DNA of 64,000 bases from Acetobacter orientalis (GTDB lineage: Bacteria; Pseudomonadota; Alphaproteobacteria; Acetobacterales; Acetobacteraceae). The stretch lies in assembly GCF_000963965.1 (NCBI RefSeq), contig NZ_BAMX01000013.1:1-64000 (forward strand), written 5' to 3'. The notes beneath the pieces are model-generated. The model worked only from the letters and a program-made list of their open reading frames with translations, made no database searches and was not told where the DNA came from. Each line of letters opens with the position of its first letter. The stretch's first letter is position 1. A program made the position numbers and the translations under genes. Below are positions 32,599 to 33,847 of the stretch, in pieces.

Positions 32599-33084
32599 TA
32601 TCTTTTCTCTCCGCAGCCGAAGGGTACGCTTCTGTTTAAGCGTTTAAGCCCCAGAACAAAAGGCAGACACACCCAGAGCCCCACGCTTTGAATGTGCGCT
32701 CCATCATCTGTCTCCGCTTTTTCTTACGCTTGTTTGGTGCGGAAACTCTTTTTTAAGAGTGTTTCATCTTTCTTAAACATTGCTCAATTTTTATTTATAG
32801 TACATAACGCAGTAATGTTTTTTCTGCTTTGTTTGTATTTTGATAACGTATGAAAATTTGGTTTACTTAAAGAAATCAAAGGAAGGATTCAATTTTCAAT
32901 GACAATAAAAGCAACATTCATGAATTTAAGGTTTAATACATCTTTTTTCACTAAAAATTTTATCACGAAATCGACAATTCACTTTTTCGTGATATTATAT
33001 AAAAACACCTAAAAGTATATTATAGCCTTAACATCACAACCAATAGGTGTGATGCACACTCTTTGTGGGGGAGTTCAAACCACA
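32599..33084. promoter_or_regulatory. AT-rich intergenic island before the CtrA-like gene
   Basis: 486 bases lie between divergent tsaE and the response regulator, and the right two thirds are strikingly AT-rich. It contains: GAAACTCTT/AAGAGTGTTTC, a bulged hairpin at about 32741-32771; a 37-residue open frame at 32899-33012 preceded by GGAAGG, rich in Phe, Lys and Asn, which I do not trust as a gene; and a perfect 10-base inverted repeat, TATCACGAAA/TTTCGTGATA, at 32961-32994. Several TTAA half-sites occur, but I find no TTAA-N7-TTAA full CtrA box. Confidence 0.5.
32961..32994. promoter_or_regulatory. Perfect 10-base inverted repeat upstream of the regulator gene
   Basis: TATCACGAAA and TTTCGTGATA are separated by 14 bases, centred about 107 bases before the regulator's ATG. 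The centre-to-centre spacing of the arms is about two helical turns, which suits a dimeric DNA-binding protein such as an autoregulator. An RNA hairpin is an alternative. Confidence 0.4.
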
Positions 33085-33847
33085 ATGCGTATTCTATTCG
33101 CTGAAGATAACCAGGCCTCGGCCAAGAAGATACTTCCTGCACTAACGCGCGCTGGTTTGGTGACGGATATTGCCACATCTGGGCAAGACACGCTGGAAAT
33201 GCTGCGTAACTACAGTTACGGTCTTGCCGTTATAGAGCTGATTTTACCCGATATGGACGGGTACGATATTATCAGCGCCGCCCGCACCATGAAAATTCAG
33301 ACTCCCATCATCGTGCTGTCTTCCATTGATAAGCCTCATTCCAAAATAAAGGCTTTTACCAATGGTGCAGATGATTACCTCACCAAACCATTCGACACAG
33401 ATGAACTTGTGGCACGTATTCAAGCCATTTTGCGGCGCTCTGGCGGGTTCTCAAGCCCTATTACGCAGGTTGGCAACCTGGTGATGGATATGAACACCCA
33501 TGCGGTTATGGTGAACGAGCAGCCCGTACACCTAACAGGCAAAGAGTTCTCTATTCTGGAACTGCTGATTTTGCGCAAAGACATTGCTCTTACTAAGGAA
33601 ATGTTCCTTAACCACCTTTATGGCGGCAGAGATGAGCCAGACGTAAAAAATTATTGATGTCTTTATCTGTAAGTTGCGCAAAAAACTGCAAGAAGCTGGA
33701 GCGGGCAACCTTATCTCTACCATCTGGGGCCGTGGTTACATTCTAACCGACCCCAAAAATAAAAAAAATGCAGCCCCCAACGCTAACCACACAACCTCTC
33801 CACCACCATGCTTTCAGCCTGATCTGTGCCGTCAAGCCGCCAGCTAA
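33085..33847 (+). pseudogene. CtrA-like response regulator, Glu at the phosphosite, frameshifted
   Basis: An OmpR/PhoB-type response regulator closest to CtrA, the alphaproteobacterial cell-cycle and motility regulator. The receiver domain (1-~120) has the acidic pair in LFAEDN (7-8), Ser at about 79-80, and Lys101 in YLTKPF, but the phosphoacceptor at residue 51 is Glu (IELILPDMDG) instead of Asp. The winged-helix domain has the CtrA-typical HLTGKEFSILELL and LTKEMFLNHLYGG. At 33645-33650 a run of six A puts the frame one base out, and translation stops at 33657 after 190 residues, losing the recognition helix and wing. Reading five A restores [13 protein letters not shown] and WGRGYIL and runs to a stop at 33847 (253 residues). 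The start ATG at 33085 follows GGGGAG. It could be a true pseudogene, a slippage-controlled gene or a base-calling error. Confidence 0.85.

Follow-up and report, generated by a model that had tools for sequence, protein, structure and literature searches.

The ctrA gene and its broken frame

The window (the whole stretch of 64,000 nucleotides analysed, from Acetobacter orientalis) carries at 33085-33657 an open reading frame whose product begins MRILFAEDNQ...GLAVIELILPDMDGYDI and has, on translation, a glutamate as residue 51 (Table 1). Pfam searches with this frame returned a Response_reg domain (E = 6.6e-22, 78 bits) and a partial Trans_reg_C domain (E = 1.2e-06). Residues were numbered on a MAFFT alignment that included a row for Caulobacter CtrA; this row served for the numbering and defined the Asp51 acceptor column. 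The gag codon of the window gene, read as Glu, aligns to that column, with no aspartate at the position, and Glu7, Asp8 and Lys101 are all present, in agreement with the initial annotation, which had described a CtrA-like regulator with a natural Glu51 and an otherwise preserved acidic pair and lysine. The window CtrA thus departs from the canonical combination of Asp51, acidic pair and Lys101 at residue 51, and corresponds to an aspartate-less receiver, that is, a Response_reg domain devoid of the acceptor Asp.

In a gene tree that included 12 of 16 paralogues, the window gene fell inside the CtrA branch, apart from the other OmpR-type regulators (SH-aLRT 99). The NCBIfam CtrA equivalog was the best-scoring model both for the window part (235 bits over 188 residues) and for the intact CtrA of Acetobacter cibinongensis (309 bits), each score lying below the cut-off of 350 bits. 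The nearest relative found, from A. cibinongensis 4H-1 (L042), is 87% identical and likewise carries Glu51. The gene at 33085-33657 is the single ctrA orthologue of the genome, the 18 other receiver hits showing at most 36% identity; no second, Asp51-carrying ctrA was found among them, nor any other orthologue-level hit in the genome. The window copy is therefore not a second, decaying paralogue of a real CtrA encoded elsewhere, as had also been proposed.

Table 1. Position of ctrA, of its diagnostic codons and of the related flagellar gene. Coordinates are those of the window unless a locus is named.
Feature	Position	Strand	Remarks
ctrA, first part (whole receiver and start of DNA-binding domain)	33085..33657	+	190 aa, premature stop; sole orthologue in the genome
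Glu7 and Asp8 codons (acidic pair)	33103..33108	+	translation, alignment
Glu51 codon (gag), phosphoacceptor position	33235..33237	+	translation, alignment
Lys101 codon	33385..33387	+	translation, alignment
Adenine run, site of the frame break	33645..33650	+	frame uninterrupted here in all 32 other orthologues printed
ctrA, remainder (recognition helix, wing, C-terminal tail)	33650..33847	+	legible solely in another frame
CtrA-derived 266-aa protein	L341:11973-12773 (window genome, contig C50:119972-120769)		flagellar gene cluster

The initial annotation had overlooked a break in the frame. The open reading frame stops at 33657 (VKNY followed by the stop codon), ahead of the recognition helix, and the remaining CtrA sequence runs from 33650 in another frame to a stop at 33845-33847. 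The winged-helix DNA-binding domain is hence incomplete in the window copy as assembled, while it is intact in A. cibinongensis (L013); the assembled gene would not encode a full DNA-binding domain, the recognition helix being absent from the predicted product. Since the stretch following the break still reads as CtrA, the break must be either very recent or an assembly error. If real, it would deprive the protein of its recognition helix and leave CtrA non-functional in this genome. We rather favor a homopolymer error of sequencing or assembly, with no biological content: the break sits in an adenine run, the CtrA reading continues beyond it, and a ctrA break is also found in another genome (G122). 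In the latter, ctrA (L183:368-1121) is split into two overlapping frames, which may mean a second break in the gene or, again, an error of assembly.

The 300 bases upstream of the window gene (32785-33084) have a G+C content of just 28%. The motif TTAA-N7-TTAA is absent upstream of the window ctrA and present in 6 of 44 genomes; its positions are alike only within two pairs of close relatives. CtrA boxes gave 0 matches in the window against 1.0 expected, and in the entire window genome TTAA-N(6-8)-TTAA was not enriched (159 occurrences versus 172 for a control pattern). No chemotaxis genes were recognised beside ctrA among the open reading frames of the window.

Residue 51 across the family

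Eighty of the 108 genomes first chosen (73 family members and seven from the rest of the class) were arranged on a SecA tree, built quickly by maximum likelihood and with some forks unresolved. The window genome falls in a clade of 57 genomes (SH-aLRT 100), which we take to be the acetic acid bacteria. Residue 51 was legible in 52 of these genomes; G092 is illegible at this point, and four genomes have no orthologue. It is Glu in 31, Asp in eight, His in five, Ser in three, Asn and Thr in two each and Ala in one, so that the acceptor Asp is missing in 44 of the 52 readable members. Shared by 31 clade genomes including that of the window, Glu51 is clearly not a lone mutation. Outside the clade, all 19 readable genomes have Asp51; of the others, three lack an orthologue and one, G122, has the broken frame mentioned above, with an Asp recognised by eye. 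Asp51 was also found in 79 of 79 loci from other alphaproteobacteria when named genomes were scanned (best 80 of 584 loci, the one remaining being that of A. cibinongensis itself). A metagenome bin titled Asaia bogorensis (L090) encodes a CtrA of 48% identity with Asp51 that resembles those of other alphaproteobacteria, unlike those of the clade. Asaia is a genus of acetic acid bacteria; the title of the bin may be wrong, and otherwise this would be another Asp51 case.

Among the eight clade genomes with Asp51, the canonical site is complete in five (G009, G024, G034, G073 and G090) and incomplete in three (G004, G106 and G120). The five with a complete site are four related Acetobacter and the early-branching G073. 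When the SecA tree was pruned to the 71 genomes in which residue 51 is legible, Fitch parsimony required 12 changes: 11 within the clade, which makes up 51% of the pruned tree length, and a twelfth implied at its base. The state assigned to the clade root was Glu. The Asp51 of the eight clade genomes is best read as a reversal or a retention.

Covariation with the rest of the site was scored in 104 sequences (107 ctrA loci minus those of G030, G092 and G122, which could not be read from residue 1 on). Lys or Arg101 accompanies an acidic residue 51 in 84 of 86 sequences and a non-acidic one in 0 of 18; on the tree, this coupling amounts to three independent losses. Asp8 is required for the chemistry of phosphotransfer. 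It has been lost in 28 of 43 Glu51 sequences, and in a set of 27 sequences, presumably Gluconobacter-like, its loss is complete (27/27), with Glu51 kept in 24 and Lys/Arg101 in 26. Although Glu51 ranks only 35th in conservation among the 120 receiver positions of this set, its persistence despite the loss of Asp8 is the best argument for a role other than awaiting a phosphate.

Substitution rates were compared in 15 pairs of related sequences (the pair G033-G025 being left out), separately for the receiver and for codons 121-188. In 29 of the 30 comparisons dN/dS lay between 0 and 0.13, several of the dS values exceeding 1; the remaining ratio was undefined. The low ratios extend to pairs with His51, Thr51 or Ser51. 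Judged by these ratios, the CtrAs of the clade are maintained proteins under purifying selection and not decaying paralogues. The same data bear on the window gene itself, which could be a pseudogene in a lineage that is losing ctrA, with Glu51 and the frame break both representing steps of decay. Such a scheme would accommodate the broken frame, as well as the four clade genomes in which no ctrA orthologue was found (G012, G016, G020 and G089). We consider it unlikely, given that dN/dS between the window genome and A. cibinongensis is about 0.04 (with dS saturated), that the stretch beyond the break is still CtrA-like and that Glu51 is common to several genera.

The CckA-ChpT relay and other parts of the circuit

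Long matches to the ChpT profile (Pfam PF10090) exceeded the cut-off in 19 of the 80 genomes, these being the seven outgroups without exception and 12 of the 16 members of the family that lie outside the clade. None of the 57 clade genomes had a match over the cut-off, nearly all the matches listed being short and to kinase-like frames; that of the window genome is a single short one, below cut-off, within a hybrid kinase. One longer weak match, in G032, was dismissed as ChpT on account of its score (5 bits, compared with 199-246 for the profile's own 14 ChpT members); by its sequence the protein looks like a class I glutamine amidotransferase.

The curated CckA models, with cut-offs of 1000, were unusable: the cut-off of the Caulobacter model was reached by none of the 80 genomes, the seven outgroups scoring 445-566 bits. 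A profile was therefore built from 16 kinases and used to score up to 24 candidates per genome. It gave 413-611 bits in 18 of the 80 genomes and no match of this level in the 57 clade genomes, among whose scored candidates the best reached 394 bits. The margin is narrow, the lowest true CckA scoring 413 bits and the best other kinase, from an outgroup, 402. In the window genome, where 24 of 41 candidates were scored, the best kinase had 304 bits and fell outside the CckA branch. So did all ten clade kinases sampled for the kinase tree, from which the kinase of G147, having no readable core, was left out. A 744-aa hybrid kinase of the window genome (L217) was likewise rejected as CckA, scoring 214-266 bits with the curated models and falling outside the CckA branch. 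Hybrid kinases as such remain in most clade genomes. Two genomes, G084 and G136, have ChpT but no CckA-level match with our profile.

The initial annotation had envisaged a regulator freed from the CckA-ChpT relay. This part of its interpretation gains support from Glu51 being common to the orthologues of acetic acid bacteria and from the absence of ChpT and of CckA-level matches in the 57 clade genomes searched; the decaying paralogue offered alongside it does not fit a sole orthologue whose relatives are under purifying selection. The loss of ChpT and the earliest change of Asp51 fall in one and the same region of the tree. Since they effectively amount to a single event, tests on independent pairs are powerless, and those made gave no significance.

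Degeneration of the relay in Rhodospirillales is already in print (Brilli et al. 2010, PMC2877005; PMC8116508). Brilli et al. recorded cckA as present and chpT as absent in their Rhodospirillales cluster, and between them the two papers give chpT, cckA and divL in only 27-36% of genomes. To this the present data add the lack of a CckA-level match in the clade; residue 51 is not mentioned in the accessible parts of either paper.

Other members of the circuit fared differently. GcrA was matched in 79 of the 80 genomes, over the cut-off in 78, and this part of the circuit, by the measure of profile matches, remains. SciP (DUF1153) exceeded the cut-off in the seven outgroups and in 0 of 73 genomes of the family, where G097 alone gave a weak match; its loss thus seems to precede that of the relay. 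The loss of SciP was discarded as an explanation for the peculiarities of the clade, the gene being absent, at this cut-off, from all 73 family genomes. Outside the clade, G122 has ChpT, and in G107 (L219) and G037 (L222) ctrA lies within approximately 7 kb of chpT and of genes that look, by their sequences, like chemotaxis genes.

Possible modes of action, and a flagellar relative

Textbooks present CtrA as the master regulator of the cell cycle in alphaproteobacteria, and a central place is given to its phosphorylation. The protein of the clade is like that of Caulobacter and other alphaproteobacteria in being an orthologue by tree and by its hallmark DNA-binding sequence, and in its two-domain architecture. 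It differs from the CckA-ChpT-CtrA systems in that 44 of 52 members are without Asp51, that neither ChpT nor CckA was found and, in the case of the window, that the frame is broken. We propose that CtrA in the clade probably acts without a phosphorylation switch, and we regard the following course of events, centered on a single orthologue, as likely. The CckA-ChpT relay would have been dismantled in the ancestor shared by acetic acid bacteria, as its absence in our searches suggests, and CtrA retained to regulate by binding DNA, with no further need of phosphorylation. Parsimony indicates that Glu took the place of Asp51 at the base of the clade or close to it. The site would then have eroded: in later branches residues 51 and 101 would have been lost together (Thr, His, Ser, Asn or Ala51 without Lys/Arg101) under continuing purifying selection, and a few branches would have Asp51 without a relay, through reversal or retention.

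How such a protein might be active is suggested by the laboratory variant CtrA D51E, which has been used as a phosphomimetic (PMC12186491). The change is identical and affects the identical site; that of the clade is natural and old, and no relay was found to accompany it. By analogy, Glu51 may mimic the phosphate: facing Lys101, it would most likely hold the receiver in an active-like, dimer-competent form, as the D51E variant is meant to do. Where residue 51 is non-acidic, output would have to be set by abundance, by partner proteins or by a built-in active conformation. A stronger version of this proposal can be put forward tentatively, with close to even chances of being correct: the replacement would be a natural phosphomimetic that compensated for the ancestral loss of ChpT and CckA, and the site of the resulting permanently-on regulator could then decay even as selection maintained the protein. 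In that case the CtrA of the clade would be constitutively active, with its amount as the sole means of control.

Precedents exist among aspartate-less receivers, or pseudo-receivers, such as RitR, HP1043 and ChxR of Chlamydia. The situation described here is ChxR-like, ChxR being an OmpR-type protein with a natural Glu at the acceptor site. It differs from all three in that a conserved phosphorelay regulator has changed clade-wide, with the loss of its relay visible, and in that the acidic pair and Lys101 survive in some members, among them that of the window. Glu is reported to be the commonest substitution in aspartate-less receivers (26%; PMC4395418), and a Glu replacement can activate them but is often insufficient alone (PMC4395418, PMC12632262). 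In ChxR, constitutive DNA binding was not abolished when the natural Glu was replaced by Asp or Ala (PMC4395418). In Rhodobacter capsulatus, gene transfer rose on overexpression of CtrA D51A and dropped slightly with D51E (PMC6363796).

The ChxR and R. capsulatus results imply that Glu need not be what matters. Drift of an unimportant site is thus a serious rival to mimicry: CtrA would need no receiver signal, its residue 51 would drift under relaxed constraint, and Glu would simply be an easy change from Asp. The occurrence of seven different residues at position 51 in the clade and the erosion of Asp8 and Lys101 conform to this idea, as do the activity of an unphosphorylatable CtrA in Rhodobacter (PMC6363796) and the dispensability of the ChxR Glu for DNA binding (PMC4395418). 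Free drift is harder to reconcile with the retention of Glu in 31 of 52 genomes across deep branches, its coupling to Lys/Arg101 and the low dN/dS of the receiver in 15 of 15 pairs. On balance we see drift as a real possibility, though one we would not expect to prevail.

Since five Asp51 genomes of the clade keep an intact site, another phosphodonor is conceivable. CtrA would then be phosphorylated on Asp51 by acetyl phosphate or a different kinase, the Glu51 lineages representing locally locked forms. The four related Acetobacter and G073, with Asp51, Glu7, Asp8 and Lys101 in place and no ChpT, would suit such a route, and the hybrid kinases of most clade genomes could provide the enzyme. 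For the clade at large it is improbable, however, as Glu, Thr, His, Ser, Asn and Ala are unable to take the usual aspartyl phosphate and as Asp8 is gone from 28 of 43 Glu51 sequences. A regulator operating independently of phosphorylation thus remains our preferred reading, and what would be new is a CtrA orthologue apparently turned into a pseudo-receiver throughout a clade. Among the papers listed by searches of the open-access literature, none dealt with residue 51 of CtrA from acetic acid bacteria; the word CtrA does not occur in the main text of PMC4395418 or PMC12632262.

A clade that maintains CtrA by selection, in most members devoid of its acceptor Asp, and in which no relay was found offers a natural test of the purpose of phosphorylation, and also of how a phosphorelay can vanish while its regulator stays. 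Laboratory work is practicable with several of its species, which serve in vinegar, cellulose and insect-symbiont research, so the question is open to direct testing.

A further CtrA-derived protein, 266 aa in length, is encoded elsewhere in the window genome, amid genes whose domains are of the FliG, FliM, FliE, export (FliR/FlhB type) and flagellar rod/hook kinds. Its best-scoring model is that of CtrA (142 bits versus 86 for the next best, and far below the cut-off of 350), and it nests within CtrA on a long branch of the gene tree. As a candidate for the real CtrA of this genome it was rejected, being more degenerate than the window protein, with Gly-Ser in place of the acidic pair; in other genomes one of the two acidic residues is often kept. 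Copies with E values of 3.1e-58 or better occur in 16 of the 80 genomes, all within the clade, and the 12 copies printed all have, by eye, Gln at the acceptor position. This protein is possibly another phosphorylation-independent regulator, with a flagellar role.
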